A stretch of 50,402 nt of DNA. It comes from Acidimicrobiia bacterium (GTDB lineage: Bacteria; Actinomycetota; Acidimicrobiia; Spongiisociales; Spongiisociaceae). The translations under genes were made by a program, and so were the position numbers. The DNA is taken from assembly GCA_009838635.1 (NCBI GenBank), contig VXRE01000035.1, positions 1,065-51,466 on the forward strand, written 5' to 3'. The notes beneath the pieces are model-generated. The model was not told where the DNA came from and did no database searches. It saw only the letters and a list, made by a program, of their open reading frames with translations. Shown here piece by piece: positions 14,571 through 43,461 of the stretch; the first letter of the stretch is position 1; each line of letters begins with the position of its first letter.

Positions 14571-14721
14571 GTCGTGCCCAGGTTCTACTCCGCGCTCCCG
14601 TTGCTTGTCAACCGGCAATTGCTCGGAGTGAGGAGCCGGGCACCGTCGCTCCGGGCCACCAGCGCTGTCTTGACCCGGGGTGATGGCGGACCGACGGCTT
14701 GAAAGGACGGAGTTCGGGCAT

Positions 14722-16332
14722 ATGGCGGGACAACCTCTCGATCTGGTGGTAACCAACGGCACGGTCGTGACGGGCGGCGGACGCTACCGGGTGGCGGTCG
14801 GCGTCAAGGACGGCAAGGTGGCCATGCTGGCTCCCGAGGAGTTGATGCCGTCTGCCAAGAAGACCATCGACGCACGGGGCAACTACGTGCTCCCGGGGGT
14901 GGTGGACTCCGAGGCTCACCCGGGGTGCTACGTGCCGTTCGACTACGACATGACCACCGAGTCGCGGGCGGCTGCCACTGCGGGTATCACCACCTGGGGT
15001 ATCCAGGCTCCGACCACTCGTTTGGGCACGAAGCCGTTCAAGGAAGTGGTGGGCAGGGCCGACGTGGTCTCGTTCAACGAGTCGTTTCCTTCGGGGCGGG
15101 ACGTGATCAACGAGGTGAGCCATGTCGACGCCTACCTGACCTACATGCTCGAGACCGACCAGCACGCCCGAGAGATCCCCCAGTACGCCGAGGAACACGG
15201 GGTCACCTCCTTCAAGCTCTACCTGCAGACCCGTTCGATGAAGGGCATGTCGGACGAGGACGACACCAACTGGCCGTCCCGGCGGGCCGGCCTGGGTACG
15301 GGCATCGATGACGGCACGGTCTACCTGGTGATGGAGGAGGTCGCCCATATCGGCCATCCGGGGATCGTTCACATCCATCCCGAGAACTGGGAGATCGGGC
15401 GGATCTTCGAGGACCGCCTTCGGAGTAGCGGCCGCACCGACTTCGGTTCGTGGACCGACCGCTCACCCGATTTCCTCGAGGCCCACCACGTCCGCTCATA
15501 CGCCTACCTGGCCATGCAGACCCCCGGCCACGTTCCCCTCTACCTCCAGCACTGCACCACCAAGCTGTCCTTCGAGGAAGTGGCCCGAGCTCGCGCCGAG
15601 GGTCTGGAGCTGTACGCGCAGACCGGTCCACCATGGCTCTGGGCCGAGCCCGAGTACGGCTGGAGGATCAACGTCCCGCTCCGCCGCAGGGACAACATCG
15701 AGGCGCTCTGGGTGGCGCTGGCCGAGGGCATCGTGGACGTCGTCGGGTCCGATCACGTGGTTGGATGGGAGCCGTCCTCCCACGAGGAGATGTTCAACCC
15801 GGTGATCTGGGATTGCCGTACCGGGTTCTCGAGGGTGGAGTTGTTCCTGCCCGTGATGCTGTCGGAAGGGGTCAACAAGGGCCGCATCAGCCTCGAGCGG
15901 GCCGTCCAGGTGAGTTGCGAGAACCCCGCCAAGACCTCCGGCCTCTGGGGAACCAAGGGCTCGCTCCTCCCGGGCTTCGACGCGGACATGGTGATCATCG
16001 ACCTGGGTCGGGAGGTGAAGGTCGGCAAGGAGCACATCAACACCAGGTCCGGATGGTCGATCATGGAAGGCCATACCTTCACCGGCTGGCCGATCATGAC
16101 CATCCTGCGGGGCGAGGTCAGCGCGGAATGGGCGGACGACTCACCCGGGATGCGTCCGGTCGGAGATCCGCGGGGCCACTACCTGCCTCGCAAGCTGGGG
16201 CCCAGCCATCAGGTCCTGGACGCCAACAGCCCGGCCCGGGTGGCCCCCACCCAGCGCTGGCTGGCCGACAAGTTCGCCCGACCCGGCTTCGCCCCCGAGA
16301 CCACGAAGTACACCCGGCCCATCGGGGGTTGA
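14722..16332 (+). CDS. Dihydropyrimidinase/hydantoinase-like cyclic amidohydrolase
   Basis: LPGVVDSEAHPG, TSFKLY carboxy-lysine region, LQHCTTK, VGSDHV, PGFDADMVIIDL; start MAGQPLD at 14722. Confidence 0.82.
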   Translation: MAGQPLDLVVTNGTVVTGGGRYRVAVGVKDGKVAMLAPEELMPSAKKTIDARGNYVLPGVVDSEAHPGCYVPFDYDMTTESRAAATAGITTWGIQAPTTRLGTKPFKEVVGRADVVSFNESFPSGRDVINEVSHVDAYLTYMLETDQHAREIPQYAEEHGVTSFKLYLQTRSMKGMSDEDDTNWPSRRAGLGTGIDDGTVYLVMEEVAHIGHPGIVHIHPENWEIGRIFEDRLRSSGRTDFGSWTDRSPDFLEAHHVRSYAYLAMQTPGHVPLYLQHCTTKLSFEEVARARAEGLELYAQTGPPWLWAEPEYGWRINVPLRRRDNIEALWVALAEGIVDVVGSDHVVGWEPSSHEEMFNPVIWDCRTGFSRVELFLPVMLSEGVNKGRISLERAVQVSCENPAKTSGLWGTKGSLLPGFDADMVIIDLGREVKVGKEHINTRSGWSIMEGHTFTGWPIMTILRGEVSAEWADDSPGMRPVGDPRGHYLPRKLGPSHQVLDANSPARVAPTQRWLADKFARPGFAPETTKYTRPIGG

Positions 16333-16334
16333 CG

Positions 16335-17090
16335 ATGCCTATCTGGGACGACGTCCTCACCGAGACGGATCGGACGGTCTTCGCCGCGGCCGGTTGGGGC
16401 AAGCGGGCCGGGTACGGCGACCGTCCCGCCATCATGGTCATCGACGTCAACTACAACTTCTGCGGGGACCGAGCCGAGCCGATCCTCGAATCGATCGAGC
16501 GGTGGCGTTACGCGTGCGGGCCCGAGGCCTGGGAGCGCGGGATCCCCGCCATCCAGGACATCCTCGACGTGGCGCGCGCCAAGCGCCTTCCGGTCATCTA
16601 CACCACCAACCCGCGCCGGGCCGACGGCTTCGACCTCGGGATCTGGTCGCTGAAGAGCACCCGGGCGGAGGACGAGGTGGACGTGATGGGGCATAAGGGC
16701 AACGAGATCGTGGCCGAGGTGGCGCCCCGACCCGACGACCTGTTCATCGAGAAGCGCAAGCCGTCTGCCTTCTTCGGAACGCCGCTGGTGAGCCACCTCA
16801 CCATGATGAGGGCCGATTCGCTCATCCTCACCGGCACCACCACCAGCGGATGCGTGCGCGCCAGCGCCGTGGATGCCCTCTCGAACGACTTCAAGGTGAC
16901 GATCCCGCATGAAGCGGTGTTCGATCGTGGCGAGGTGTCACACAAGATCGCCCTCTTCGACCTGCATATGAAGTATGTGGACGTCACCGACCTGGACGAC
17001 GTTCTCACGTACCTGAGAGACCTGCCGGTGGGCTTGTTCGACGACACCTATCCGCCTGCCGCCGCGGCTGCCGGGAGGGAGTTGCTGTGA
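16335..17090 (+). CDS. Isochorismatase-family amidohydrolase (N-carbamoylsarcosine amidase/maleamate amidase-like)
   Basis: Asp-Lys-Cys triad context: MVIDVNYNF, EKRKPSAFFGTPL, TGTTTSGCVRASAVDA. Confidence 0.87.
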   Translation: MPIWDDVLTETDRTVFAAAGWGKRAGYGDRPAIMVIDVNYNFCGDRAEPILESIERWRYACGPEAWERGIPAIQDILDVARAKRLPVIYTTNPRRADGFDLGIWSLKSTRAEDEVDVMGHKGNEIVAEVAPRPDDLFIEKRKPSAFFGTPLVSHLTMMRADSLILTGTTTSGCVRASAVDALSNDFKVTIPHEAVFDRGEVSHKIALFDLHMKYVDVTDLDDVLTYLRDLPVGLFDDTYPPAAAAAGRELL

Positions 17091-17668
17091 GCCTTGACTT
17101 TTCCATCAGGAAGGTCATCAACCAGATCGAGGAGGAGCGGATCAGGGAGGGGATCGAAGCAGATCCGCCGCTCCGCAAGGCAGTGGTGGCGGCAGTGATA
17201 CACAACCCCTACGCGGGGAGTTACCACGAGGACCTGTCGGAGGCGGTCGCGTTCTCGGCCGGCCTGGGTCGGATCCTTGGGGAGATGGCCATGGACGCCC
17301 TGGGAGAGCCGGTCGTGTCCTACGGCAAGGGAGGGATCGCCGGACTAGATGGATCGCAGGAGCACGCGGTGATGTTCCTTTCCACCGCCTTCGCCAACCC
17401 GCTCCGCCAGACGCTCGGAGGGGGAGTCGCCTGGATGTCCTCGGCCACCATCGTGGCGGCGGCCGGAACCCCGATCACCATCCCGCTGGCCCACAAGGAC
17501 GCCCTCTATGTCCGCGATCACTACGACGCCATAACGCTGTATCCCGGCGACGCTCCCCGGCCGGACGAAGTACTGGTGGCCGTGGGGGTCGCCAACCGGG
17601 GGAGGCTCAACGCCCGGATGGGAGGCCTGGCGGCCGAAGACGTGATCGGCGAGGACGGATTGCGCTAA
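17087..17668 (+). CDS. DUF1185 (amino acid synthesis family) protein
   Basis: VIHNPYAG..VSYGKGGIAGLDGSQEHAVMFL..FANPLRQTLGGGVAWMSS. Confidence 0.8.
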   Translation: MSLDFSIRKVINQIEEERIREGIEADPPLRKAVVAAVIHNPYAGSYHEDLSEAVAFSAGLGRILGEMAMDALGEPVVSYGKGGIAGLDGSQEHAVMFLSTAFANPLRQTLGGGVAWMSSATIVAAAGTPITIPLAHKDALYVRDHYDAITLYPGDAPRPDEVLVAVGVANRGRLNARMGGLAAEDVIGEDGLR

Positions 17669-17672
17669 CGCG

Positions 17673-18869
17673 GTGGGCAGACCACGCCGGACCGCGATCG
17701 TCAACATCGGGACTCTGGTCACGGGTGACCTGGCCGGCCCGGTCACGGATGCGGAGGCGCTGTTCATCGAGGACGGGTCCATCGTGTCGATCGGATCCTC
17801 CGAGGGCTACGAGCACGCCGACCAGGTGATCGACGCCAACGGGGCCACCGTCGGGCCGGGATTGATCGACTCCCATTGCCACGTGGTCATCGGTGACTTC
17901 ACCCCTCGCCAGAACGTGGTCGGCTTCCTCAGCTCGTACGTGCACGGTGGGATAACCCAGGTGATCTCACCCGGAGAGATCCACGCGCCGGGTCGACCGC
18001 ACGATGCCGACGGGGTGGTCGCCCTGGCCGTGTTCGCCCAGCGGTCATGGAGCAATTACCGGCCCAACGGGATGAAGGTCAACGGCGGAGCGGTGGTGCT
18101 CGAGCCGACCCTCCAGCCCGAGCACTTCCGTTATCTGGCTGACCAGGGGGTGTGGCTGGCCAAGTTCGGGTTCGGCCGGTACGAGGACCCGGCCGACGGA
18201 CTGCCGCAGGTCCGGGCGGCGCAGGAGGTGGGGATCAAGGTGATGTGCCATTCGGGTGGGGCGTCCATCCCCGGTTCGAAGCCCATCACCACCGATCATC
18301 TGATGCTGCTCCGTCCTGACGTGTGCGGCCACATCAACGGTGGCCCCTCGTCGCTTGACGATGACGGAGTCGTCCGGATCGTGTCCACGACCGATCTGGT
18401 GCTCCAGATCGTCCAGGCCGGTAACCTGCGGAGCGCCATCCAGATAGTGGAGTCGGTGCTCGAACACCGGGCTGAGCACCGGGTGATCATCGGGTCGGAC
18501 ACGCCCACCGGGACCGGTGTCATGCCGCTGGGCGTGCTCAAGACGATGGCCGAACTCTCCTCCCTCACAAATGCCGATCCGGCCACCGTGTGGGCATGGG
18601 CCTCGGGGGTGACGGCGGACGTCTACGGCTTGGATGCGGGGAAGGTCGAGGTGGGCCGGGCGGCCGACCTGGTGATCGCCGATGCGCCCTGGGGATCGTA
18701 TGGCGGAGACGCCCTCGGCGCCCTCGCCAGGGGCGACATCCCGGGCATCACCGCGGTCCTAATCGACGGCCGGGTCCGCGCCTTGCAGAGCCGCAACACC
18801 CCCGCCGCGGCCCGCCAGGTGACCGTCACCCCCGAGATCGGTGAGCTCCCCGGCTCTGCCCACGTCTGA
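17673..18869 (+). CDS. Enamidase-like amidohydrolase
   Basis: Extended resemblance to recalled E. barkeri enamidase: GLIDSHCHVVIGDFTPRQNVVGFLSS.VHGGITQVIS, KPDV-HINGGP, GSDTPTGTGVMPLG, GDIPGITAVLIDG...SRNTPPAAR. Confidence 0.83.
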   Translation: MGRPRRTAIVNIGTLVTGDLAGPVTDAEALFIEDGSIVSIGSSEGYEHADQVIDANGATVGPGLIDSHCHVVIGDFTPRQNVVGFLSSYVHGGITQVISPGEIHAPGRPHDADGVVALAVFAQRSWSNYRPNGMKVNGGAVVLEPTLQPEHFRYLADQGVWLAKFGFGRYEDPADGLPQVRAAQEVGIKVMCHSGGASIPGSKPITTDHLMLLRPDVCGHINGGPSSLDDDGVVRIVSTTDLVLQIVQAGNLRSAIQIVESVLEHRAEHRVIIGSDTPTGTGVMPLGVLKTMAELSSLTNADPATVWAWASGVTADVYGLDAGKVEVGRAADLVIADAPWGSYGGDALGALARGDIPGITAVLIDGRVRALQSRNTPAAARQVTVTPEIGELPGSAHV

Positions 18870-19100: not shown

Positions 19101-19109
19101 GCTCCTCCT

Positions 19110-19354: not shown

Positions 19355-19957
19355 ATGAGCCTAGAACACGAGGTAACCGTTCCGGCCAGGGAGGGTCGGG
19401 GTGTCTACGTCCGCAAGGGTCAGTTGCTGGACATCGTCGATGTCGAAGGCCACCAGGTCGGGGATTTGATCGCGTGGTTCCGCAACGATCCCTCCGAGTA
19501 CCTGTCTCCGACCCACACCGTGTCGTGCAACGCCTCGATCGAGTTGGCGACGGGATCGCAGGTCTTCTCCAACCGACGCAACCCGGTGTTCACCATCGTC
19601 CGGGACGACGTGGAGCGCCACGACATCATCGTGCCGTGCTGTGACCACGAGCGTTTCAAGCGGGACTACGACCTCGACGATCACGACCATTGCCTGGCCA
19701 ACCTCTACCAGGCGCGCGACCTGCTCGGGGAGGACTTCGGCTTGCAAGGCGAGATGGCCTGGAACGTGTTCATGCACAACCGGGTGACCGACGACGGGGA
19801 CGTGGTGACCGATCCCGCCGCCCACGACGCCGGCGCCACGATGACCCTGCTGGCCCACGAGGATCTGGTGGTGCTCCTGTCCGCCTGCCCCCAGGACCTC
19901 ACCCCGTGCAACGATTTCAACCCCACCTCGATGCTCATGAGGCTTCGGGAGGACTAG
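19355..19957 (+). CDS. DUF1989 urea carboxylase-associated / carboxyguanidine deiminase-like protein
   Basis: VEGHQVGDLIAW...LSPTHTVSCNASIEL...SNRRNPVFTIVRD...PCCDHERF...CLANL...FMH...LLSACPQDLTPCNDFNPTSM. Confidence 0.85.
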   Translation: MSLEHEVTVPAREGRGVYVRKGQLLDIVDVEGHQVGDLIAWFRNDPSEYLSPTHTVSCNASIELATGSQVFSNRRNPVFTIVRDDVERHDIIVPCCDHERFKRDYDLDDHDHCLANLYQARDLLGEDFGLQGEMAWNVFMHNRVTDDGDVVTDPAAHDAGATMTLLAHEDLVVLLSACPQDLTPCNDFNPTSMLMRLRED

Positions 19958-20120: not shown

Positions 20121-20150
20121 ACGGCACAACTAGACGGTTAGGAGGACCTG

Positions 20151-21185
20151 ATGACCACAACGATCCGGCACGAACCGGACGCCGCCCGCCTGGCTGAATC
20201 GGCTCGCAAGATCCGCTCACCGTTTGAACTCGACCTGTCTCTCCGGTTCTACTCGCCGCAGGCCAACCTCGACGGCATGCAGCATCCGCAGATAGCCGAT
20301 TGGCATCGCTACGTCGGCGAGGAGTGGACCCCGCCACCCACGCCCTCCGGCGGGCGGCGGGTGGCGCTGCTGATCCCTTGTACCAAGTACAAGCCCTACT
20401 CGACCAGCCGGGAGCATCGGGCTATCAACCGGGCGCTTCTGGAAGCGGGTTGGCGTCCCGAGGGAGCCTCTACCGCACCGGCGGGTATGGTCGGTCACCT
20501 CGACGACGGGGAGAGTCCGGATCTTCTCCATGACGGACCGCTCCGGCGTGGCGACGTGTTCCTGGACCGGTTCGTGCTGTCGGAGCCGATGGCGATCGTG
20601 CCCTATTCCCACATCTACTACTGGCGAGACGCCCCCAGCCCCGCCGCTTGCTACGACGATCCCGGTCTGTTCGAGGCGCGCGGGACCTCGGTGTCGCCGG
20701 AGCGGCCCGACTGCACGGCAACTCCGCTCGCGAACGGGAAGTGGAGGTGGGGTCCGGCGGAGCGCCAGGCCTTCGCCGAGACCCACAACTATCTGGCCGT
20801 GATCATCCGCCGGTGCCTGGTCCGGCTGTCGCCCGCCTATGCGGAGACAGGGGCGTGGGTTTCACCCGGATTGACTCATCGCAGCTTCCTGGCCGACGAC
20901 GCGTTCCGGCGCGCGGAGGGTCTGCCGCGGTCTCGAAAGGGCACTGCCGGGCCGGTCAAGCTGGTAGGGGTCCTGGAGGGCGCGCCGAGCCTGGTCACGA
21001 TGATGCCCACCCAGGATCAACTGGAGGACGCCCGCAGTCGCTTGGCGGGACGGCTGGAGGCGGAAGGCCGCCCGGCCACGCCGGCCGCGGTCCGGGCGGT
21101 CTACGCCCGCGGGGACGGGAACGACACCCCGCTCGGTCTGCCAGAGGCGCTCACCCATCTCACGGGTTGGCTCGACACGGTATGA
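20151..21185 (+). CDS. Stand-alone DUF5591/ArcS catalytic-domain-like protein
   Basis: PCTKYKPYSTSREH matches PCX3KPYX2SX2H; downstream VLSEPMAIVPYSHIYYWRDAP.ACYDDPGLFE parallels the ArcS core; no TGT or PUA region seen. Confidence 0.65.
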   Translation: MTTTIRHEPDAARLAESARKIRSPFELDLSLRFYSPQANLDGMQHPQIADWHRYVGEEWTPPPTPSGGRRVALLIPCTKYKPYSTSREHRAINRALLEAGWRPEGASTAPAGMVGHLDDGESPDLLHDGPLRRGDVFLDRFVLSEPMAIVPYSHIYYWRDAPSPAACYDDPGLFEARGTSVSPERPDCTATPLANGKWRWGPAERQAFAETHNYLAVIIRRCLVRLSPAYAETGAWVSPGLTHRSFLADDAFRRAEGLPRSRKGTAGPVKLVGVLEGAPSLVTMMPTQDQLEDARSRLAGRLEAEGRPATPAAVRAVYARGDGNDTPLGLPEALTHLTGWLDTV

Positions 21186-21883
21186 GTGAGGACCTGGAGG
21201 GGCTGCGGAGCGCCGTCGCCTCGACCGCCCGCATACTGGCTTCCGCCGGGCTGGCCGAGGCCTTCGGGCACGTCTCTGCCCGGACTCCCGCCGGGTTCCT
21301 GATCACGAGCACCAGCCCGCTGTTCGAGGCCACGGCCGATGACGTGATCCGGGTCGAGGCCGGCGTGCCTGCCGGGGGGCCGACCCACGCTGCTCCGCTG
21401 GAAATGCCCATGCACGCGGCCATCTACGACTCCCGTCCCGATGTAGGGGCCATCTGCCGCGGCCACCCGCCGTACGTGGTGACCTGGGGGGTGTCCGCCG
21501 AACCGCTGCCCCTGCTGCACGGGCTGGGCGGCATGGCGGGCCGGACCGTTCGGACGCACCCGGAGATCGAGTTGGTCAAGACGGCTGAGGCGGGCAAGTC
21601 GGTAGCCCGGACCCTCGGGGATGATTCCAGCGTCCTGCTGGCCGCCAACGGGTGCCTGGCGGTGGGCGCCGACCTCCTGGAGGCTGCTACCCGCCTGTGG
21701 TTTCTGGAGGAGCGGGCACGGGTGGTGGTCCAGGCTCGCAGCGCCGGCCTGACCCCGCTGACGGTCCGCGAGTACACCTGGGACCGGCGCTTGTCCGACT
21801 CCGCCCCGGAGTTGGTTCGAGCGCGGGAGTGGATGCGCCGGTCCTTCGCCCCCGATCAGGACAAGGGAGGCAGTCCATCATGA
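21182..21883 (+). CDS. Class II aldolase/adducin-family protein
   Basis: GLAEAFGHVSART.AGFLITST, EMPMHAAIYDSRPDVGAICRGHPPYVVTWG; ATGA overlap with upstream gene. Confidence 0.85.
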   Translation: MSEDLEGLRSAVASTARILASAGLAEAFGHVSARTPAGFLITSTSPLFEATADDVIRVEAGVPAGGPTHAAPLEMPMHAAIYDSRPDVGAICRGHPPYVVTWGVSAEPLPLLHGLGGMAGRTVRTHPEIELVKTAEAGKSVARTLGDDSSVLLAANGCLAVGADLLEAATRLWFLEERARVVVQARSAGLTPLTVREYTWDRRLSDSAPELVRAREWMRRSFAPDQDKGGSPS

Positions 21884-23145
21884 GCGAACCTGTCGGCAAG
21901 CAGCTCGACCACCACCCGGAGATGTCCGCCCACGAGGCCGACGCCTACCGGAACGACTTCGTCCGCCACCTTTGCCAGACCGTGCCCGGCATCAAGGAGA
22001 GCGTGATCGTGGACGCGGCCGGCTGCTCGCTCAAGACGGCCGAGGGTCGGATCCTTCTCGACATGATCTCGGGCATCGCGGTGTCCAACCTGGGTCATTG
22101 CCATCCCGCGGTGGTCAAGGCCGTCCAGGACCAGGTTGCGCGGTTCTCCCATGTTGACGTGTACGGCCGGTTCACCCTGCCCCCGCAGGTGGAGATCGCC
22201 CGGCGGCTGGCGTCGGTCACGCCCGGCGATCTGGATGTGGCCTTTCTGACGAGTACCGGAACGGAGGCGACGGAGGGCGCCTTGAAGCTGGCCCGCAAAT
22301 ACACGGGCCGTCCGGGGTTCGTCGCGTTCCAGCGTTCGTTCCATGGGCGCACGTTGGGCTCGCTCTCCGTGACCTGGCGGGAGGAGTGGCGCAAGCCGTT
22401 CGAGCCCCTTCTCGAACCGGTGCGCTTCGCTCCCTTCGACGACCTCGATGCGGCCGACCGGGCCATAGACGACGCCATAGCGGCGGTCATAGTGGAGCCC
22501 ATCCAGGGCGAGGGCGGGGTTCGCATCCCTTCGGACGGGTTCCTTCCGGGACTCCGGGAGCTCTGTACCGAACGGGGTGCGTTGCTGATCTGCGACGAGG
22601 TCCAGGGCGGCATGGGGCGCTCCGGCAAGTGGTTCTCATGCCAGAACTGGGGGGTGACGCCCGACGTCATCACCGTGGCCAAGGCCTTCGGGGGCGGCCT
22701 TCCCCTGGGCGCGTTCATCTCCACCGCCGAGATCTTCTCCACCTTCCTGGACCCGCCCCTGTCCCACCTCACCACCTTCGGCGGGAACCCGGTCTCCTGC
22801 GCCGCCGCCATAGCCGCCTTCGACGTGATCCGGAACGAGGGCCTGGTGGAGCGGGCCGCGGATATGGGGGTGTACCTCCGCAGCGGCCTCCGTTCCGTCC
22901 GCCGGGACCATCCCGGGACGTTGGCAGGCATCCGCGGCATGGGCCTGTGGTGTGCGTTCGACGTCCAACCGGCCGAACTGGCTCAGCCCCTGGTGGAGGA
23001 GATGGCCCGCCGCGGGGTAGTGGTCGGGTCGATGCTCAACTCGGCCGGAACGGTCCGGGTGGCCCCACCGCTGGTGGTCGAGCAGGAACACATCGACCGG
23101 TTCCTCGGGATCCTGGAAAGCTCCCTGAACACCCTGGAGGGCTGA
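21880..23145 (+). CDS. Class III PLP aminotransferase (4-aminobutyrate/ornithine type)
   Basis: FLTSTGTEATEGALKLAR, FHGRTLGSLSVT, LLICDEVQGGMGRSGKWF, VITVAKAFGGGLPLGAF. Confidence 0.93.
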   Translation: MSEPVGKQLDHHPEMSAHEADAYRNDFVRHLCQTVPGIKESVIVDAAGCSLKTAEGRILLDMISGIAVSNLGHCHPAVVKAVQDQVARFSHVDVYGRFTLPPQVEIARRLASVTPGDLDVAFLTSTGTEATEGALKLARKYTGRPGFVAFQRSFHGRTLGSLSVTWREEWRKPFEPLLEPVRFAPFDDLDAADRAIDDAIAAVIVEPIQGEGGVRIPSDGFLPGLRELCTERGALLICDEVQGGMGRSGKWFSCQNWGVTPDVITVAKAFGGGLPLGAFISTAEIFSTFLDPPLSHLTTFGGNPVSCAAAIAAFDVIRNEGLVERAADMGVYLRSGLRSVRRDHPGTLAGIRGMGLWCAFDVQPAELAQPLVEEMARRGVVVGSMLNSAGTVRVAPPLVVEQEHIDRFLGILESSLNTLEG

Positions 23146-24530
23146 TGCCGCCTTCCGTTCCTCCCGGCGAGCATTTGATCGTCCGGGGTGCCTGGGTGCT
23201 GACCATGGGACCCGTTGGTGCCATCGAGGACGGGGCCGTCCATATCGAGGGTGGCGGGATCACCTCGGTGGGTCCTTACCGGGAGTTGAGGAGGCAGCAT
23301 CCAGACGTGGCCGTGGTGGGCGACGAGCACAGCATCGTGCTTCCGGGTCTCATCAACGCCCACACCCACCTCTCCGAGGCGCTCATTCCGGGCATGGGCT
23401 CGGAGCTGAGCCTCTACGAATGGGGCGAACGCCTGGTCACTCCCGTTTCGAGGAACCTCACGGCGGAGATGGCGCGGGAGGGGACCATCCTGAAGGCCGC
23501 CGAGATGATCCGTTCGGGGATCACCTTCGTCAACGACATGTTCGTCCACTCGAATCCCGGGACCCGCGCATCGCTGGGCGTGGTCGAGGGCCTCGTGGAA
23601 GTGGGCCTTCGTGGAGCCGTCAGCTTCGGGGCGGAGGATGCCCTGGGCGACACCTCCTCGATCCCCCCGATGGGGGTGGAGGAGGTCCTTGAGGAGCATC
23701 ACGATCTGGCGGCCGCTGCTCGGGAGTCCGGCCTGGTGGGATTCCGGTACGGAATCGGGACCCTGCTCGGGCAGTCCGACGAGCTGCTCGAGGCCGGAGC
23801 GGCTGCCTGCCGCGAGAACGGCTGGGGGGTTCACACCCATCTCTCCGAGGTACGGGAGGAGGTTGTCCACTCCTCCTTGCGGTGGGGGCGGCGCCCGGTG
23901 TCGCAAGCCGCTCACCTGGGCTTTCTCGATGTCCCTCTCCTGGCGGCTCACGCCATCTGGGTCACCCAGGAGGACATCGAGATCCTGGCCGGGGCGCGGG
24001 CGGGGATAGCCCACAACCCGGTCGCCAACATGATCCTGGGCTCCGGCGTGTGCCCGCTGGCGCGGCTCCGAGCAGCGGGCCTCGAGGTGGGGATCGGAAC
24101 CGACGGGGCGGCTTCCAACGACTCCCAGAACATGTTCGAAGCCGTGAAGATGGCCGCGCTCCTCCAGAAGGTTCACGAGTTGGATCCCGCAGTGATCTCG
24201 GCCGATGAGGTCCTGGAGATGGCGACCATCGGCGGCGCCCGGGTGCTGGGCGTTGATAGCGAGGTGGGCAGCCTGGAGGCCGGGAAGCGGGCCGACCTGG
24301 TCCTGCTCAGCGGAACGGTCGAGCTGGCCGCCGTCCACGACCCCTACCAGCAGGTCGTCTACTGCGCCGGTCCGGGCTCGGTCAGCGATGTCTGGGTCGA
24401 CGGGCGCCGGCTCTTGGCGGAACGATCCCTGACCACTATCGACGAGGCCGCCCAGATAGCCCGGGGGCGGTCGCTGGCCCGCGCAGTGGTCCGGGAAGCG
24501 GGGCTGAGCGGGGTTCACTCCCTCTTATGA
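23145..24530 (+). CDS. TRZ/ATZ (MtaD/AtzA-like) amidohydrolase
   Basis: LPGLINAHTHLSEALIPGM, HTHLSEVREEV, AHAIW, IGTDGAASNDSQNM, EAGKRADLVLL. Confidence 0.92.
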   Translation: MPPSVPPGEHLIVRGAWVLTMGPVGAIEDGAVHIEGGGITSVGPYRELRRQHPDVAVVGDEHSIVLPGLINAHTHLSEALIPGMGSELSLYEWGERLVTPVSRNLTAEMAREGTILKAAEMIRSGITFVNDMFVHSNPGTRASLGVVEGLVEVGLRGAVSFGAEDALGDTSSIPPMGVEEVLEEHHDLAAAARESGLVGFRYGIGTLLGQSDELLEAGAAACRENGWGVHTHLSEVREEVVHSSLRWGRRPVSQAAHLGFLDVPLLAAHAIWVTQEDIEILAGARAGIAHNPVANMILGSGVCPLARLRAAGLEVGIGTDGAASNDSQNMFEAVKMAALLQKVHELDPAVISADEVLEMATIGGARVLGVDSEVGSLEAGKRADLVLLSGTVELAAVHDPYQQVVYCAGPGSVSDVWVDGRRLLAERSLTTIDEAAQIARGRSLARAVVREAGLSGVHSLL

Positions 24531-26101
24531 CCCGCGTGGCGGTCATCGGAGGGGGCCACAACGGTCTGGTCTGCGCATGCTTCCTTGCCAACGCCGGTCT
24601 CGACGTCACCGTCTTCGAGGCCAACGCGACGGCGGGCGGATGTATCTGGACCGACCAGCTTGCTTCCGGCTACCGCCTGGAGCGGGGCGCCATCGATCAC
24701 GGCATGATCCTCGGCATCGCTGAAGAGCTGGGCCTGGCCCGGTTCGGCCTGGAGTACGCCTTCCGGGAGGTGTCGGTCGGGGCAGGCTTCGGGGACGGCA
24801 CGCGGTTGCTGTTCCACGGGGACCTGTCAACCACCCTGGCGGGTTTCGGCGCCCTCGACCCCCGAGACGTAGAGGGCTACCGGAAGCTGTCGGAGCTGGG
24901 AACCGGTCTGCTGGGGATGATGGACGCCTTCGCCACCCCGCCGTCGCTGGCCCAGATCGCCGAGCTGGGACCCATAGCAGGGTTCGACCCGCTCCGGACG
25001 GTCCTGGCCTCGGCCGAGAAGGTGGTCGGCGCCCACATCGCCGATCCGCACCTGGCCGCTGCTCTCACCATGTACGGGGCGTTCAGCCAGCTCCCCCCGT
25101 GGGTACCCGGCACCGGCCTGTTCGGCCTGCTGCTGGCCGGTTCGCACGGCCACGGGGCCGGGCGCCCCATCGGCGGCTCCGTCCAGCTGGTCAATGCCCT
25201 GGTCGGTGCCCTCGAGTCGGCCGGCGGGAAGATCCTCACCGACACTGCGGTGGCGTCGATCCATCGGTCGGGCGCCGAGTCGAGGATCACCACCGCGGCC
25301 GGGGACACCGCAACCTTCGACCGGGTGGTCTCGGCGCTCGACGTGGCGCGCACCGCCCGGCTTATGGCCGAGCCCGTGCCGGAGCTCGACGAGGCGGCCC
25401 GGATGGTGACCAGCGGATCCCTCAACGTTGCCGAGTTCAAGGTGGATCTGGCGCTGTCCGCCGTGGCCGAGCCCGGTCGGTTCGGTCACCCCGAGGCGAT
25501 CTGGCTGCTGCAGCAACACCCCGGCTCCATGGACCGGTCGTTCGGCGAGATCGCGGCCGGCCTCTATCCATCGGAACCGGCCATGCTCTGGGCCTCGCCC
25601 TCGGCCCTGGACCCGTCGGCCGCGCCCGAGGGTGGCGGCGTAGCCTGGTTGTCGACCTTCGTGCCGGCCCGTCTCAGGCATGGGGATTGGACGGGGGCGG
25701 AGGTGTCGAGGCATGCAGAGCGCGTGATCGACGGCTACCGGGCCATCACGGGCGTCTCGCTCAGGGACCGGATCGTTGACAAGCGGGTAACCGGCCCTGT
25801 GGACTGGGAGAGGCGCATGGGCGCCAGGTTCGGCAATCCCAACCACATCGACATGACCATCGACCAGATGTTCTCGCTCCGGCCCGGCGCCGGCCGGGGT
25901 TACCGGACCGCCGTTCCCTGGCTCTACCTGACGGGCGCCGGCACGTTCCCGGGCGGAGGCTTGTCGGGTGTGCCGGGCAAGAACGCCGCGCTGACCGTGC
26001 TCCACGACTTGGGCCGCAAGCGTTCCCGGCAGGCTGAGCCGTCCACCATGTCGACGCTGGTCCGCGGTTGGCGCATGTACCGTTCCCTGAAGAAGCGATG
26101 A
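24527..26101 (+). CDS. NAD(P)/FAD-dependent oxidoreductase (phytoene desaturase-like)
   Basis: VAVIGGGHNGLVCACFLANAGLDVTVFEANATAGG Rossmann/FAD motif; C-terminal PWLYLTGAGTFPGGGLSGVPGKNAA. Confidence 0.9.
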   Translation: MTRVAVIGGGHNGLVCACFLANAGLDVTVFEANATAGGCIWTDQLASGYRLERGAIDHGMILGIAEELGLARFGLEYAFREVSVGAGFGDGTRLLFHGDLSTTLAGFGALDPRDVEGYRKLSELGTGLLGMMDAFATPPSLAQIAELGPIAGFDPLRTVLASAEKVVGAHIADPHLAAALTMYGAFSQLPPWVPGTGLFGLLLAGSHGHGAGRPIGGSVQLVNALVGALESAGGKILTDTAVASIHRSGAESRITTAAGDTATFDRVVSALDVARTARLMAEPVPELDEAARMVTSGSLNVAEFKVDLALSAVAEPGRFGHPEAIWLLQQHPGSMDRSFGEIAAGLYPSEPAMLWASPSALDPSAAPEGGGVAWLSTFVPARLRHGDWTGAEVSRHAERVIDGYRAITGVSLRDRIVDKRVTGPVDWERRMGARFGNPNHIDMTIDQMFSLRPGAGRGYRTAVPWLYLTGAGTFPGGGLSGVPGKNAALTVLHDLGRKRSRQAEPSTMSTLVRGWRMYRSLKKR

Positions 26102-27069
26102 TCGACAACGACTGGCAGCTCATCGACCTGGTCACCGGGTACCAGCCTGCCGCGGCGATCACGACCGCCCATCGGCTGGGCGTGTTCTCGGTTCTCGGGC
26201 GCCTTCCCCGGTCGGCCGGTGACATGGCGGCGGAGTTGGCGGTGGATGCCACCAACCTCGGGGCCTTGCTGGAGGCGTTGGTCGGGATCGGCCTGCTGCG
26301 CAGGGAGGGCGACCGGTTCGCCGCCACGCCCTACGCCGCGGAGCGCCTGGGTCCGGACGGGGAGATGGGCCTCGTAGTGGCCAAGGAGGCGGTGTTCGCC
26401 GGGGCATGGTCCCGCCTGGACGAGGTGGTGACCGAGGGGCGTCCCGTCATGGAACCCTGGCGATCCCAGCTCGACCGGAATCCGGAGCAAGCCCGGGCAC
26501 TCCTGGACGCGCTGGATGTGTTGGCGAGGATCGGCGGGCCGCCGCTCCATGAGCTCGGCGAGCTTGCCCCCGGCAAGCGGGTCCTCGACGTGGGCGGCGG
26601 TCTCGGAAGCTATGCACGCCCGCTCTCCGAGGCGGGCTCTCATGTCACTCTGGTCGACTACCCCCTCGTCACCGGCTGGGCAAGCGAGGAGTTGGAGGGC
26701 ACGGGAGTGGAGGTGGTCGGGGTGGACCTCTTCGAGCATCCTTCATGCGGGGTCCCGCCCGGATCGATGGAAGCGGCCCTCGTGTCCCATTTGATCCATG
26801 ACCTCGCCGAGGACCAGGCGGTGGAACTGCTGCGCAGGGTGCGGTCGGCGATCGCACCGGGCGGCCACGTCGTGGTCAACGACTTCGCCGGTGACAGCGG
26901 TCCAGGAGCGTTCGGCGCCCTCTTCGATGTCATGATGAGGGTCGAGACCGGTGGAGCAGCCCATTCGAGGAAAGCTTTGGAGTCCATGCTGGCCGGGGCA
27001 GGGTTCGAGAGGATCAGGCGGTTGCCGTACGACGACCCCCTCACGATCTACATAGGCGTCAGGCCATGA
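26098..27069 (+). CDS. SAM-dependent O-methyltransferase (family 2-like)
   Basis: N-terminal dimerisation/HTH region, VLDVGGGLGSYARPLSEAG, SHLIHDLAEDQAVELLRRVRSAIAPGG. Confidence 0.88.
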   Translation: MIDNDWQLIDLVTGYQPAAAITTAHRLGVFSVLGRLPRSAGDMAAELAVDATNLGALLEALVGIGLLRREGDRFAATPYAAERLGPDGEMGLVVAKEAVFAGAWSRLDEVVTEGRPVMEPWRSQLDRNPEQARALLDALDVLARIGGPPLHELGELAPGKRVLDVGGGLGSYARPLSEAGSHVTLVDYPLVTGWASEELEGTGVEVVGVDLFEHPSCGVPPGSMEAALVSHLIHDLAEDQAVELLRRVRSAIAPGGHVVVNDFAGDSGPGAFGALFDVMMRVETGGAAHSRKALESMLAGAGFERIRRLPYDDPLTIYIGVRP

Positions 27070-37234: not shown

Positions 37235-38587
37235 TCAGGAACGGGCCAGTAGGGAATGCTGTCCGATTTCCGCGTGACGGGCGAGCCGGCGGGCCAGCGG
37301 GCGGGACCGTTCGGCGACCTCGGCCGGGTTGACGTGGACCACCTCACCTGCGGCGACTGACTTCGATCCTGTCACCCACACGTCGGAGACCTCGCGTGGG
37401 CCGGCGCAGTAGACGACCTTCTGGAACGGGTCGTGGATATTGGCCAGGGCCGGGGAGGAGCCGTCGAATACCACGAGGTCGGCCTGCTTGCCCGGTTCTA
37501 TGGAACCGAGTTCGCCATCGAGGTGCAGGGCTCGGGCGCCCTCGATGGTGGCCATCGCCATCGCATCACGAGCGGACAGAGCGGTCGCCTGGAGCCGGTC
37601 GACCCGCTGGAGGAGCACTGCCATCTTGATCGCTTCGAGCATGTTCTGGCTGTCGTTGCTGGCGGGCCCGTCCACCCCGATCCCGACTGCCACACCGCGG
37701 CGGCGTAGGGCGGGAACCGGGCACACACCGGATGCAAGGATCATGTTCGAGACCGGGTTGTGAGCCACCCCCACTCCGTGCTCCGCCAGCAGGTCTCGAT
37801 CGCTCTCGTCCAACCACACGCAGTGGGCGGCGATGGTGGGACCGTCGAACAGGCCCAGACGAGCGCACTGCTCGATGGGTGACCGCCCCGTGGCGGCCCT
37901 CACCGCCGTCACCTCCTCGCGGACCTCGTGGAGGTGAATGTGGCTTCCGTGGGCTGCGGAGAGCCTCACAGAGTGCTCGAAGAGTTCCTCCGACTGCGCG
38001 CCCATGAGCGCGATCCCGACTCGGAAACGGGACAGGCGGCTCGCTTCGCACGCCTCCCGTAGGGCGGCATGCTCTTCGAGGATCGCCGACACGGCAGCTC
38101 CCCTACGGTCGGCGGCGCCGAAGGTGACCACCCCGCGCATCCCCAACTCGTCCAGCGCCCGGACGATCCCGGGGGTGACAGGTTTATCGGCCGGGTCGCA
38201 GACGTACATGTCACTCGCCACGGTGATTCCGGTCCGGAGCATCTGGATGCCGGCCAGGAGCGTGCCCACGTAGGCCATCTCGTGGTCGTGATGGGGCGCT
38301 GTGGGATTGATCACCGCCTCGATCCACTCCCAGAGGGTGAAGTCCTCGGCGATGCCTGTGAAGAGGCCTTCCGAGAAGTGTCCGTGGGTGTTGACGAACC
38401 CGGGTGTGATGATGGAGTGGCGGTCTCCCTGAACCTCATCGTACGGATGGCGGGCGCTCAGGTCGGTCCATGTCCCGACCTCGTCGATCAGTTCGCCGAC
38501 GATACGAACCGCTCCGTCCTCGATCATCTCCGGTGTCGAAGAGGTCAGGACGTAGCCGCCCCTGACCAGGATTCCTCGGTCCGTCAC
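37235..38587 (-). CDS. TRZ/ATZ-family amidohydrolase (paralog of 23145-24530)
   Basis: ITPGFVNTHGHFSEGLFTGI, IHLHEVREEV, AHCVWLDESD, IGVDGPASNDSQNMLEAIKMA; GTG start 38587 overlaps upstream stop. Confidence 0.9.
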   Translation of the reverse strand: MTDRGILVRGGYVLTSSTPEMIEDGAVRIVGELIDEVGTWTDLSARHPYDEVQGDRHSIITPGFVNTHGHFSEGLFTGIAEDFTLWEWIEAVINPTAPHHDHEMAYVGTLLAGIQMLRTGITVASDMYVCDPADKPVTPGIVRALDELGMRGVVTFGAADRRGAAVSAILEEHAALREACEASRLSRFRVGIALMGAQSEELFEHSVRLSAAHGSHIHLHEVREEVTAVRAATGRSPIEQCARLGLFDGPTIAAHCVWLDESDRDLLAEHGVGVAHNPVSNMILASGVCPVPALRRRGVAVGIGVDGPASNDSQNMLEAIKMAVLLQRVDRLQATALSARDAMAMATIEGARALHLDGELGSIEPGKQADLVVFDGSSPALANIHDPFQKVVYCAGPREVSDVWVTGSKSVAAGEVVHVNPAEVAERSRPLARRLARHAEIGQHSLLARS

Positions 38588-39450
38588 TGCGACGGGGGAG
38601 GGGTATGGAAGTCGTACAGGTCGGGACCCGGCTTCACCAACTCCTCGTAGAGTTCCGGACGGCGGGCCCTGAGCAGGCCGGGAATGGATGAGAAGCCCTT
38701 GGGCTCCACCATCGAGTCGTCGTTCGACCTGAGCCACTCCACCCGTTCCAGGTCGAGGTTGGCCAGGAGCAGTTCCTCCGTTCCCGAGCTCACCGCCACG
38801 TATTCCGGGCCGGCGATCATCGCCGCGCCCACCTCGTCGCGCCAGATGTTGTTGGTCATGGCTACGTAGCAGAGATTCTCCATGGCCCTGGCACGGACGA
38901 TGGTCTGCCAGTTGTCTGTAAGAGAGGTGAATCCGCCACCGGCCGGGGACAGGATCAGTTGGGCGCCTCGTAGGGCCAGCACGCGGGTGGGCTCGGGTAT
39001 CCACAGTTCCGAGCACACCACGATCCCCATCCGGACCCCGTCAATCTCGATAAGGGCCAGATCGGGCCCCGGCGCCACCCAGACCCTCGTCTCGTCAGGC
39101 GGGAGTGTGGCCGGATGTGCCCGTTCGTAACGGAGCAACTGCCGACCCTCGGGGTCCACTACGTAGACCACGAGGCGGTAGTTTCCGTCAGCGCACAACT
39201 CCATGCGGCTCCAGCACACCGAGATACGGTGGTCCGCTGCGGCGGCCGCCATGGCCCCCGCCGCCTCGTACGTGTCCCGCGGCTTGCCGAGCACCGGACC
39301 GGGGTAACCCTCGGGAAAGAGGATCAGGTTCGCCCCGAGATCGGCTGCCCGGGCGGCCAGCTCCACCGCCCGGGCAACGTTCACTTCTGCGTCGGGATTC
39401 ACCACCGTGCGCGGCTGCGCGACGGCGAGCCGGAGCGATCCCGCCGCCAT
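38584..39450 (-). CDS. Carbon-nitrogen hydrolase (nitrilase superfamily)
   Basis: LILFPEGYPGPVLG, GIVVCSELWIPEPTRVLALRGAQLILSPAG; start MAAGSLRLAVAQ. Confidence 0.86.
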   Translation of the reverse strand: MAAGSLRLAVAQPRTVVNPDAEVNVARAVELAARAADLGANLILFPEGYPGPVLGKPRDTYEAAGAMAAAAADHRISVCWSRMELCADGNYRLVVYVVDPEGRQLLRYERAHPATLPPDETRVWVAPGPDLALIEIDGVRMGIVVCSELWIPEPTRVLALRGAQLILSPAGGGFTSLTDNWQTIVRARAMENLCYVAMTNNIWRDEVGAAMIAGPEYVAVSSGTEELLLANLDLERVEWLRSNDDSMVEPKGFSSIPGLLRARRPELYEELVKPGPDLYDFHTPPPSQ

Positions 39451-39454: not shown

Positions 39455-40657
39455 CTACAGCCCGATCGAGAAGTCGATGAACTCGTTGGTGACGAGGTCT
39501 TCCGGAGCGAGCCCGCTGACGTCCGCCTCGGTGACCTGGTCGATGATCGCCAGGAGCCCGACGACCCGGTCCATGTCGAAGTCGCCGAGGGTGTCGTTGT
39601 CACCATTGCCCATGATGCCGAGTTCCAGCATCGTGGACACCGCGAAGTCGGCCACGCCCTCGGTGTAGATCCATCCGGTGTCGTAGACGTCCACCAACTC
39701 CAGGATCAACTGGTTGGTCGGATCCGGGTTGTTCAGGAAGTCCACGTGGGCCTGCTGGATGATGGGCACCACTTCCCGGAGGCAATCGGCCCGGTCGGTG
39801 GCATCGGCGGCCCGGACTCCGAGCGCCTGGAAGTACTCCTCGAAGCCGGTGTCATGGATCAACTGGGTCTTGACCGGCTTGCCCCACTCGGGCACCTCCA
39901 CCTCGTAGATGTAGGGCTCGGCGGTGGCGAACCCGGCCTCGGCGACCTCGCCGCCGGCGCCGATGAACGCAGCCGGCTTGGGCGCGTCGGTCAGGTCCAT
40001 CTGGGACTCGTCCATGATGCCCTCGGCGACCCACCAGTCCTGGAACACATCCGGGCGTCCGAGCAGGATGATCGCTCCCTCGTCTTTGAGGTCGGCGATC
40101 TCGTTGACGTTCGGGTAGGTCTCCGGGTCCCAGTAGATCGCGAAGGCGCTCTTCTCGAACGTTGCCATCACGCTCACGACCGGAACATCCGCATAGGTCG
40201 ACATGGCTTCGGTAGCCCGCACGAAGCCCATGAAGATGTCCTGGTCCTGGTACAGCAGCGACTGCACCGGCTGGAAGCCGACCGCGAAGCCGCCGATACG
40301 CACCTCGATGTCGATGCCGGTGTCCTCGCCGCCCGCGACCATCGGACCGCGGACGCTCTTGGCGTCGTTGTTGATCTCGTAACCGGGACCGACCAACTGG
40401 TAGATGCCGCCATGCTCCGACTCGGGTTCCCAGTCGAGCTGGATCACGAGCGGGTCGGGGCAGACATCCGCCAGCGTCATCGCCGCAGCCTCTGTCGTAG
40501 CAGGCGCTGCGGTGGTGGCCGGCGCTGCGGTGGTAGCCGGGGCCGCCGTGGTGGCGGGGGCTTCCTCTTCGCCGCCGCACGCCGCTGCCACCAGCGACAG
40601 AGCGGCGATCAGGGCCAGCGTGGTAGCTGCCCTTCCTCGTATCCGATGTCTTCTCAT
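39455..40657 (-). CDS. NMT1/THI5-like or NitT/TauT substrate-binding lipoprotein
   Basis: MRRHRIRGRAATTLALIAALSLVAAAC lipobox; LVIQLDWEPESEHGGIYQLVGPGYE. Confidence 0.88.
   Translation of the reverse strand: MRRHRIRGRAATTLALIAALSLVAAACGGEEEAPATTAAPATTAAPATTAAPATTEAAAMTLADVCPDPLVIQLDWEPESEHGGIYQLVGPGYEINNDAKSVRGPMVAGGEDTGIDIEVRIGGFAVGFQPVQSLLYQDQDIFMGFVRATEAMSTYADVPVVSVMATFEKSAFAIYWDPETYPNVNEIADLKDEGAIILLGRPDVFQDWWVAEGIMDESQMDLTDAPKPAAFIGAGGEVAEAGFATAEPYIYEVEVPEWGKPVKTQLIHDTGFEEYFQALGVRAADATDRADCLREVVPIIQQAHVDFLNNPDPTNQLILELVDVYDTGWIYTEGVADFAVSTMLELGIMGNGDNDTLGDFDMDRVVGLLAIIDQVTEADVSGLAPEDLVTNEFIDFSIGL
40495..40566 (-). repeat. 18-bp tandem repeat encoding (APATTA)n linker
   Basis: Protein APATTAAPATTAAPATTAAPATTEA; DNA gctgcggtggtggccggc-type units. 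Confidence 0.75.
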
Positions 40658-40728
40658 GTCGGCCTCCTTTCCGATCTTCCGTTGCTGCCTGTTCCATGGC
40701 TCGCCCGATTCCGGTCGGATTCGCACGT

Positions 40729-41586
40729 CTAAGTGTCCTTGTTCCGCTCGTCAGCCCACGACGGATCCCAATGGCCCACGGCCCGGCGGCCGATCACCCC
40801 GAATATCCAGAAAGCCACCACGCCGAGCAGGCAGGCGGCGATGACCGCGGCCAGCAGTTCCTCGCTTCTGAGACGGCGGCTGTATCGGTCGAGCAGGATG
40901 CCCAAGCCGGGTTGGCCCCGACCGAAGAAGAAGTCGCCCACGATCGCTCCGATCACCGACAGGCCGGCCGAGGTGCGGAGCCCGGTGAAGATGAGCGGGC
41001 GGGCGGCAGGGACCTGGAGCTTCAGAGCCCGGGTCCACCGGCCTGCGTTGTGGAGCGTGAGCAGGTCATGCAGTCTGGGGTCGGCACCCTGCAAGCCGGT
41101 CAGGGAGTTGATGACGATCGGGAAGAGAGCGATGATCACGCAAACCGTTACCCGAGACATCAACCCGAAGCCGAACCAGAAGCCGAGGAGCGGGACCAAC
41201 GCCAGGATCGGCACCGTCTGGCATACGACGGCCCAGGGGTAGAGCGAGCGCTCGATCCACTTGGCCTGGCTCATCACCAAGGCCATCGAGAACCCCAACG
41301 CGAAGCCGATTAGCAGCCCGAGGCCGGCGACCATGGCGGTCCGGTACAGGCCGCCCATGATCTCCGCCAGCACCTCTCCGTCGAGAATCCCCTCCTCGAT
41401 CACGCCGTGGGGAGGCGGGAGGAGAAAGCGCCGGTCGGGCTCGAGCACGAAGAAGGTGATTCCGTACCAGAGGAGGATTATGGCCAGGGCGACCAGAGCG
41501 GGTGGAATGGCAACGCCGAGCAGTTCCCGGATGCGGGCGGGGCCGGCGCGGGAGGCGTTGGTGGTCTCGCCGGTCCGGTTACTCAT
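40729..41586 (-). CDS. ABC importer permease (NitT/TauT/ThiX-like)
   Basis: LYRTAMVAGLGLLIGFALGFSMALVM; TLHNAGRWTRALKLQVPAARPLIFTGLRTSAGLSVIGAIVGDFF. Confidence 0.9.
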   Translation of the reverse strand: MSNRTGETTNASRAGPARIRELLGVAIPPALVALAIILLWYGITFFVLEPDRRFLLPPPHGVIEEGILDGEVLAEIMGGLYRTAMVAGLGLLIGFALGFSMALVMSQAKWIERSLYPWAVVCQTVPILALVPLLGFWFGFGLMSRVTVCVIIALFPIVINSLTGLQGADPRLHDLLTLHNAGRWTRALKLQVPAARPLIFTGLRTSAGLSVIGAIVGDFFFGRGQPGLGILLDRYSRRLRSEELLAAVIAACLLGVVAFWIFGVIGRRAVGHWDPSWADERNKDT

Positions 41587-42362
41587 GATGCCTCTGCGAG
41601 GGCGGCGGCGACCTGGCCGGCCAGCACCGCAAACTCCGGCTCGTAGCGGATTTCGGGCTGGCGGGGGAACTCGTAAGGGATTTCGAACTCGGCCACGAGC
41701 CTTCCCGGCCGTTTGCTCATCACGAGCAGGCGAGATGCCAGGAATACGGCCTCGTCAACCGAATGCGTGACGAACAGGGCCGCGAAGCGTCGCTCGGAGA
41801 ACAGGGCGCACAGCTCTGCGTTGAGCCGGGCCCGGCTGATCTGGTCCAGCGCACCGAACGGCTCGTCGAACAGGAACAGGTCGGGATCGAGCAGCAACGA
41901 CCTGGCGATGCTGGTGCGCATCTTCATCCCGCCCGACAGGGCCAGGGGATAGTGGTCGCGGAACTCCTCGAGCCCGACCAGCGAGAGCACCTCGTCGGCG
42001 CGCCGCCTGGCCTCCTGGCGGCCCAACCCGTCCAGTTCGCCGAGGAAGGTCACGTTCTGTTCCACCGTACGCCACGGCATCAGCGTGGGCTCCTGAAAGA
42101 TGTAGCCGACGTTGTCCGAAGTCCGGCTGACCGTGCCTTCCGTGGGCTCGATGAGTCCCGAGCCGAGCCTCAGAACGGTTGACTTCCCGCACCCGGAAGG
42201 TCCCACGAGGGATACGAACTCGCCCTTTCGGATGGTGAGGCCGATGGGATCCAGGGCATCGATTGACCCGAAGGACTTGGTCACTTCGGTGAAGGCGATT
42301 ACCGGATCCAAGGCCAAACGGGTCCTTCCTGCGACACACACCACCGTGATACCGAGTAGCAC
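41583..42362 (-). CDS. ABC importer ATPase (NitT/TauT/ThiZ-like); start uncertain
   Basis: GPSGCGKST, LSGGMKMRTSIARSL, LFLFDEPFGALD. Confidence 0.92.
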   Translation of the reverse strand: MLLGITVVCVAGRTRLALDPVIAFTEVTKSFGSIDALDPIGLTIRKGEFVSLVGPSGCGKSTVLRLGSGLIEPTEGTVSRTSDNVGYIFQEPTLMPWRTVEQNVTFLGELDGLGRQEARRRADEVLSLVGLEEFRDHYPLALSGGMKMRTSIARSLLLDPDLFLFDEPFGALDQISRARLNAELCALFSERRFAALFVTHSVDEAVFLASRLLVMSKRPGRLVAEFEIPYEFPRQPEIRYEPEFAVLAGQVAAALAEAS

Positions 42363-42423: not shown

Positions 42424-43461
42424 ATGACCTCGGAGGAGCCCGTGCTGGTCTATGTCCATCCCGACCACCGTCTCCATAATCCCTCGGAGCCCCACCGATT
42501 CGGGGGAGTCCTCTTGCCTCCGGCAGAGACCGCGGCGCGAGCCGACCGCATTCTGTCCGCCTTGGCACAGCTCGAAGCAGTCGACGTGGTTTGCCCCCCT
42601 CCTGTGGACGAGCAGGACCTGCTCCTCGTACACGAGCCCGAGTACTTGGAGTTCCTGCGCATGGCGCACGACCGCTGGCGGGCCGCCACCGGCGCCCCGG
42701 CCGACGGCGAGGCGGTGGCCTACATCCGTCCCATCCCCGGATTGCCGGGCCGTCCCCCTACCCACGTCGACGCTCAACTCGGCATCTACTCCAACGATGT
42801 CGATCCGATCCTGGAAGGCACCTGGCCGGCGGCGCTCTCGGCGGCGGCATCCGCTGTCGCCGCGGCCGGTGCCATCCATGACGGGGGGAAGGCCGCCTAT
42901 GCCATCTGCCGACCACCCGGCCACCACGCTGCTCCGGCGACCTTCGGCGGCTACTGCTACCTGAACAACACCGCTCTCGCGGCGGCGTGGCTGGCGTCAC
43001 GGGGGGCCAGAGTGGCGATCGTGGATGTCGACACCCACCACGGCAACGGCACCCAGGCGGTGTTCTGGAGCCGTGGGGACGTGCTGACTATCTCGATCCA
43101 TGGTGACCCCGAGGTACATTTCCCATACTTCTCCGGCTTTCCCGAGGAGCGGGGGGACGGGTCCGGGTCGGGCGCCAACCTCAACCTTCCCCTCCCGAGC
43201 GGGTCCGGTTGGCCGGCATACCGCCCTGCCTTGGATGAGGCCGTCGAGGCAGTCGGTTCCTTCGGAGCAGAATTCCTGGTGGTGGCTCTGGGAGTGGACA
43301 CCCATGTCACCGACGGCGTGCTGGCCCTGACCGACCAGGACTATCCGCTGCTAGGGGAGGCTCTGCGCACCGGCCTGCCCACGGTGATCATCCAGGAGGG
43401 TGGATACGGTCCCGGCGTACTCGAGGCGGCAGTGCCTGCGGTGCTGGCCGCGTTTGTGTAG
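42424..43461 (+). CDS. Histone deacetylase-family (acetylpolyamine amidohydrolase-like) protein
   Basis: CRPPGHHAAPATFGGYCYLNN, VAIVDVDTHHGNGTQAVFW, SIHGDPEVHFPYFSG. Confidence 0.92.
   Translation: MTSEEPVLVYVHPDHRLHNPSEPHRFGGVLLPPAETAARADRILSALAQLEAVDVVCPPPVDEQDLLLVHEPEYLEFLRMAHDRWRAATGAPADGEAVAYIRPIPGLPGRPPTHVDAQLGIYSNDVDPILEGTWPAALSAAASAVAAAGAIHDGGKAAYAICRPPGHHAAPATFGGYCYLNNTALAAAWLASRGARVAIVDVDTHHGNGTQAVFWSRGDVLTISIHGDPEVHFPYFSGFPEERGDGSGSGANLNLPLPSGSGWPAYRPALDEAVEAVGSFGAEFLVVALGVDTHVTDGVLALTDQDYPLLGEALRTGLPTVIIQEGGYGPGVLEAAVPAVLAAFV

Follow-up and report, generated by a model that had tools for sequence, protein, structure and literature searches.

The ArcS-like gene and its surroundings

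The window (the whole stretch of 50,402 nt analysed here) contains at 20151-21185 of the forward strand an ATG-initiated open reading frame, the product of which resembles the core of archaeosine synthase (ArcS). The gene is enclosed by a run of genes on the same strand (14680-27069), and a second block of genes is located at 37235-43461. The functions of the neighbours are assigned at family level only, with scores far under the equivalog cut-offs. The features are:

14680..16332, + strand: hydantoinase/dihydropyrimidinase-like amidohydrolase (nearest PDB entry 1gkr, L-hydantoinase; in 7 of 14 lineages)
16329..17090, + strand: isochorismatase-fold amidohydrolase (nearest named solved structure N-carbamoylsarcosine amidohydrolase, followed by RutB and biuret hydrolase)
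17087..17668, + strand: AA_synth protein (PF06684)
17673..18869, + strand: amidohydrolase (Amidohydro_1/3; "enamidase-like" is a working name only)
19355..19957, + strand: DUF1989 protein (urea-amidolyase-associated family, under the equivalog cut-off)
20151..21185, + strand: ArcS-core-like (DUF5591) stand-alone protein of 344 aa (from motif, Pfam, NCBIfam, hhalign and model)
21182..21883, + strand: class II aldolase/decarboxylase-like protein (4-bp overlap with the ArcS-like gene)
21880..23145, + strand: class III aminotransferase (family-level profile matches)
23145..24530, + strand: deaminase-type amidohydrolase (TRZ/ATZ; like MTA/SAH and 8-oxoguanine deaminases)
24527..26101, + strand: FAD-dependent oxidoreductase (CrtO/CrtI-like)
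26098..27069, + strand: O-methyltransferase (Methyltransf_2)
37235..38587, - strand: second deaminase-type amidohydrolase (family level)
38584..39450, - strand: carbon-nitrogen hydrolase of the nitrilase superfamily (weakly like deaminated-glutathione amidase and N-carbamoylputrescine amidase)
39455..40726, - strand: putative ABC substrate-binding protein (no Pfam match; placed by its neighbours)
40729..41586, - strand: ABC permease (by reading and context)
41583..42362, - strand: ABC ATPase (by reading and context)
42424..43461, + strand: histone-deacetylase-family amidohydrolase (nearest solved structures acetylpolyamine amidohydrolases)

The original prediction described the gene as leading a six-gene operon and overlapping a class II aldolase gene by 4 bp. 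The overlap is real, and the genes after the aldolase (21880-27069) are packed as tightly. The leading position was not borne out, because conserved same-strand genes (DUF1989, amidohydrolase, AA_synth, isochorismatase and hydantoinase) are found directly upstream, and the unit comprises more than six genes. At the related locus L024, the DUF1989 and ArcS-like genes share 4 bp.

Between the methyltransferase gene and the gene at 35454 there is an insert of about 8.3 kb (27074-35388), containing by reading a polyamine-type ABC importer, an alcohol dehydrogenase, an M20 peptidase and LLM-type genes. It is missing from loci L017 and L020, its GC content is 0.56-0.61 compared with about 0.70 alongside, and its identity to L019 reaches 97-98% over 27.5-31.2 kb, against 88-95% for the sequence next to it. 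On these three grounds the insert is probably a recent acquisition.

Membership in the DUF5591 family and predicted structure

The ArcS signature PCx3KPYx2Sx2H, which had been proposed for this protein, is fitted exactly by residues 76-89 (PCTKYKPYSTSREH, nt 20376-20417), and the motif elements of the 344-aa protein are PC-TKY-KPY-ST-S-RE-H. The window contains no second match in any of its six frames. Residue frequencies predict about 1.3e-7 matches per window, and this value, together with the invariance of the motif in relatives, rules out a chance motif. An alignment of 18 sequences, which share 41-97% identity with the window protein, shows no variation at the signature residues, and relative L041 (~40% identical) has them too. 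In the alignment C77, K79, K81, Y83, S86, E88 and H89 are invariant, as are S144-E145-P146, P151-Y152, Y168-D169-D170-P171-G172, T242-H243 and S245.

The Pfam family PF17884 (DUF5591) matches the protein directly over some 46 residues (69-114 only), with 26.7 bits, barely above the gathering cut-off of 26. Among its relatives, L032 (34.5), L041 (30.7) and L029 (26.4) also score above the cut-off, and L028 (24.9) falls just below it. A family profile built from the 18 sequences (A1) was compared by hhalign with STSV2_16, a stand-alone DUF5591 protein, giving a probability of 96.5% and an E-value of 7.3e-10 over 90 columns. The two are collinear from an HP..W..Y segment through PC..KPY to SEPM..VP..YD.P, so that most of the core is covered and the order of the motifs is the same. 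This collinearity upholds the further claim that the region downstream of the motif (SEPMAIVPY...ACYDDP) parallels the rest of the core. As the Pfam match is above its cut-off and is backed by hhalign, the homology originally suggested holds, and the product of 20151-21185 almost certainly belongs to the DUF5591 superfamily.

With ArcS itself the protein shares the PCx3KPYx2Sx2H motif and the segment preceding it, and the SEP..VP...YD.P segment is common to the window protein and the DUF5591 core. The NCBIfam ArcS models (NF040592 and NF053620) match weakly at residues 39-99, with 27.1 and 26.9 bits against equivalog cut-offs of 600 and 440. Unlike ArcS, the window protein is bacterial, is encoded in a catabolic operon and has no N-terminal TGT-like module or PUA domain; PF17884 is the sole Pfam domain found in its 344 aa, as had been anticipated. 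It is also longer and has stretches peculiar to its family, among them SPGLTHRSF and RGDG. Judged by the missing parts and by scores of 27 bits versus 440-600, the protein is not ArcS. The proteins of Sulfolobus viruses STSV1/STSV2 (phrog_34505) and of Vibrio phage nt-1 (R9TEI9) are likewise short and lack the TGT and PUA parts, but they have 185-226 aa compared with 344 aa in the window, and their setting is viral. The free-standing STSV1/STSV2 core protein (L053:2423-2977) is encoded near a thymidylate synthase gene. On a Haladaptatus plasmid (L054:2495-4513 and 5233-7194), two TGT proteins with C-terminal DUF5591 are encoded close together. Our literature search found no paper naming DUF5591 and no description of the bacterial branch, and to our knowledge the formation of archaeosine in archaeal tRNA is the sole chemistry characterised for DUF5591.

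The AlphaFold model, predicted with 17 sequences, has a pLDDT of 90.3 and a pTM of 0.89. Foldseek against viral proteins gave a single significant match, the DUF5591 protein R9TEI9 (E 5.9e-4, probability 1.00, TM 0.41/0.60, the latter on the target), in agreement with the family assignment. Against the PDB no structure was matched at E <0.001. The top neighbour is Thermus uracil-DNA glycosylase (2d3y; E 0.062, TM 0.15-0.21, not significant), and the Thermotoga enzyme appears lower in the list (E 5.4) with a low TM-score. By sequence, the only PDB relative of the family profile at E <1 is AF0587 (2q07; E 0.0018), which carries the LLLPCTARKPYLTSRTHRAL motif; only the motif region is aligned, and the 50 matches that Foldseek listed for the model do not include AF0587. 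Invariant residues are enriched directly after the core strands 69-76, 136-144, 148-151 and 232-236 (p 5e-4, for windows picked after the model was seen). From the order of the strands, rather than from coordinates, the motif residues would lie where Rossmann-like sheets usually have their pocket.

Distribution and gene content of the island

Relatives with 41-97% identity were identified in Acidimicrobiia MAGs, Actinocorallia, Mycolicibacterium austroafricanum, Nocardioides, a Propionibacteriaceae MAG, a Frankia MAG and a Rhizobium plasmid, the proteobacterial distribution being based on plasmid records only. A further member, ~40% identical, is present in G262, another actinobacterial lineage. 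The gene is rare, with 3 carriers among 397 genomes sampled across Actinomycetota. Its bacterial context, as first described, extends to several actinobacterial lineages and the Rhizobium plasmid. A phage origin was rejected, as the scan of viral contigs gave no relative and annotated phages gave only the Sulfolobus viruses, over 15% of the query; a defence system was also rejected (no PADLOC match).

The surroundings of the gene were compared in 14 lineages. The resulting counts are mostly lower bounds, as several contigs are short, and one carrier (G120), whose gene was missed by the gene caller, is known from the 397-genome survey. Matches to the ABC permease and to the ATPase are each found near the ArcS-like gene in 12 of 14 lineages, although the ABC and Rhizobium matches are partly just 25-46% identical and may include paralogues. 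The class III aminotransferase and the deaminase-type amidohydrolase follow with 10 lineages each, and the FAD oxidoreductase, the methyltransferase and an aldehyde dehydrogenase with nine each. The recurring set includes an aldehyde dehydrogenase or a class II aldolase, often together with hydantoinase, N-carbamoyl-amidohydrolase-like and DUF1989 genes, and several of the islands gave no match to the HDAC-like and nitrilase-like genes. A search at E 1e-40, run without its own positive control, detected no hydantoinase homologue in the Mycolicibacterium, Nocardioides and Frankia-MAG genomes or on the Rhizobium plasmid. Strict coupling to the hydantoinase module was therefore discarded; that module is not obligatory, which leaves the importer, aminotransferase, deaminase, FAD oxidoreductase, methyltransferase and aldehyde dehydrogenase as the steadiest partners. 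Overall, the claim of a small-molecule operon is strengthened by a catabolic set that recurs over 14 lineages, including distant bacteria, and the protein represents a true bacterial lineage within the ArcS-core family, free-standing and encoded inside a catabolic island.

Among 99 relatives the ArcS-like gene is present in 15 genomes, and all 15 carry an orthologue of the 17673-18869 amidohydrolase. This orthologue (at least 71% identity) occurs in 16 genomes; in the sixteenth (G001), which gave no ArcS-like match, the contig ends right after the DUF1989 gene, just before the position of the ArcS-like gene. The pair formed by AA_synth and a 17673-type amidohydrolase was considered as a marker and dropped, because the G121 and G322 loci keep the pair without the ArcS-like gene and the pair is consequently not specific. 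These pair-only loci look like other pathways. The one in G121 adjoins ring-hydroxylating dioxygenase genes, and at L075:8511-10681 the pair is near Rieske ring-hydroxylating dioxygenase and LigB genes.

The type of importer varies by family, being either NMT1/THI5, whose nearest PDB entry is the pyrimidine-binding ThiY, or PnrA-like Bmp, which two lineages use. By their sequence resemblances these importers suggest an N-heterocycle as the substrate. The PnrA/Bmp importers, the first rank of Thermus uracil-DNA glycosylase among the PDB neighbours (with the Thermotoga enzyme further down) and the fact that no nucleosidase could be recognised among the island genes would also fit a nucleoside hydrolase or glycosylase-like protein, with a nucleobase pocket like that of uracil-DNA glycosylase that frees a modified base from an imported nucleoside. 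We consider this unlikely, given that the structural match is not significant, that the protein has the invariant Cys motif of ArcS, and that ThiY-type importers point to bases and not to nucleosides.

preQ0 supply and proposed function

The original prediction left room for an unrecognised tRNA step and proposed a check of the genome for queC and TGT. TGT is present in the host genome, but full-length QueC is not, with partial matches of 20-32 bits only. The same was found in 19 related genomes, including 16 carriers (partial 20-32-bit matches and no full-length QueC). Five more carriers were checked, and a true QueC (260.7 bits) turned up in Mycolicibacterium alone, where it lies among que-like genes on a 1.43-Mb contig; the ArcS-like gene of this carrier is on a separate 682-kb record. 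QueC is thus missing in nearly all tested carriers, which implies no home-made preQ0 there and means that endogenous preQ0 is unnecessary for keeping the ArcS-like gene. No tRNA-modification genes were found in the neighbourhood of the gene, and together with the lack of full-length QueC this is evidence against the tRNA step. The motif and core homologous to ArcS and the TGT of the host would agree with a true archaeosine-type synthase in bacteria that works on tRNA or DNA. Nevertheless such an enzyme is extremely improbable in view of the distribution of QueC, whose only true copy lies on a different contig, the missing PUA and TGT-like parts, the low ArcS scores and the catabolic neighbours.

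At L081:3044-8910 the Mycolicibacterium carrier has QueC clustered with genes that by reading are QueE-like, QueD-like and otherwise que-like. Transposase-like genes lie close by, as does a gene whose product contains LTIIVNCTDRKS close to its N-terminus. This arrangement suggests an island for DNA modification with 7-deazaguanines that has no connection to the ArcS-like gene.

As the conserved set of import and breakdown genes occurs in unrelated soil and marine bacteria, the ArcS-like protein has probably been re-used on a small nitrogen-ring compound and not on tRNA. The explanation that we favour, with reasonable though limited confidence, is a bacterial DUF5591 enzyme in an import-and-breakdown pathway for a small N-heterocycle, for which we propose a purine-, pyrimidine- or 7-deazaguanine-like substrate class. 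That the protein acts on a free small molecule of the pathway seems likely. There is a precedent for such a role, since ArcS of T. kodakarensis, which joins lysine to preQ0, accepts the free preQ0 nucleoside and 5'-nucleotide and refuses the base (PMC11298593).

The joining of lysine to preQ0 would also be consistent with a protein that forms or cleaves an amidine or amide linking a heterocycle to an amine (such as lysine or a polyamine) during degradation of a conjugated natural product. Relatives of acetylpolyamine amidohydrolase and N-carbamoylputrescine amidase are among the neighbours, as are a class III aminotransferase with resemblance to putrescine aminotransferase and an aldehyde dehydrogenase. 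However, all these resemblances are remote and under the equivalog cut-offs, and the islands without HDAC-like and nitrilase-like matches also speak against such a role, which we judge improbable.

For the pathway of a small N-heterocycle, the compound would be imported by the ThiY/NMT1-type or PnrA/Bmp-type ABC importer. Cys77, with Lys79, Lys81, Tyr83, Ser86 and His89, may then carry out carbon-nitrogen chemistry, the target being an electrophilic nitrile or amidine carbon of a free base or nucleoside, attacked by Cys77 via a thioimidate. The model for this attack is the Cys thioimide formed with the preQ0 nitrile in QueF and QueF-like (PMC5485725); these enzymes are not homologous to ArcS and serve as an analogy for Cys77, from which both the step and its direction are inferred. 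Nitrile or amidine chemistry is possible, with somewhat less than an even chance. Afterwards the deaminase, aminotransferase and aldehyde dehydrogenase, with the hydantoinase and N-carbamoyl amidohydrolase where present, would dismantle the rest.

Creatinine and pyrimidine breakdown (Rut pathway) involves a deaminase, a hydantoinase and an N-carbamoyl amidohydrolase. The island neighbours belong to the same enzyme families and offer a plausible order of action, although they are under the equivalog cut-offs and hydantoinase is unmatched in four carriers. Through this family-level resemblance, a ring with a guanidine-type unit would suit the neighbours. A 7-deazaguanine substrate is rather unlikely. 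So too, with a slightly lower chance, is a salvage or breakdown pathway for 7-deazaguanine nucleosides or bases (preQ0, archaeosine or queuosine-derived), in which the ArcS-like enzyme would act on the C7 substituent and the deaminase- and hydantoinase-type enzymes on the ring.

A bacterial branch in a catabolic island would show that the nitrile/amidine-handling core of ArcS has been recruited to small-molecule metabolism, and DUF5591 proteins of this kind should not be named tRNA-modifying enzymes. The island would also provide an entry point to a pathway for an N-heterocycle in marine, soil and rhizosphere bacteria.
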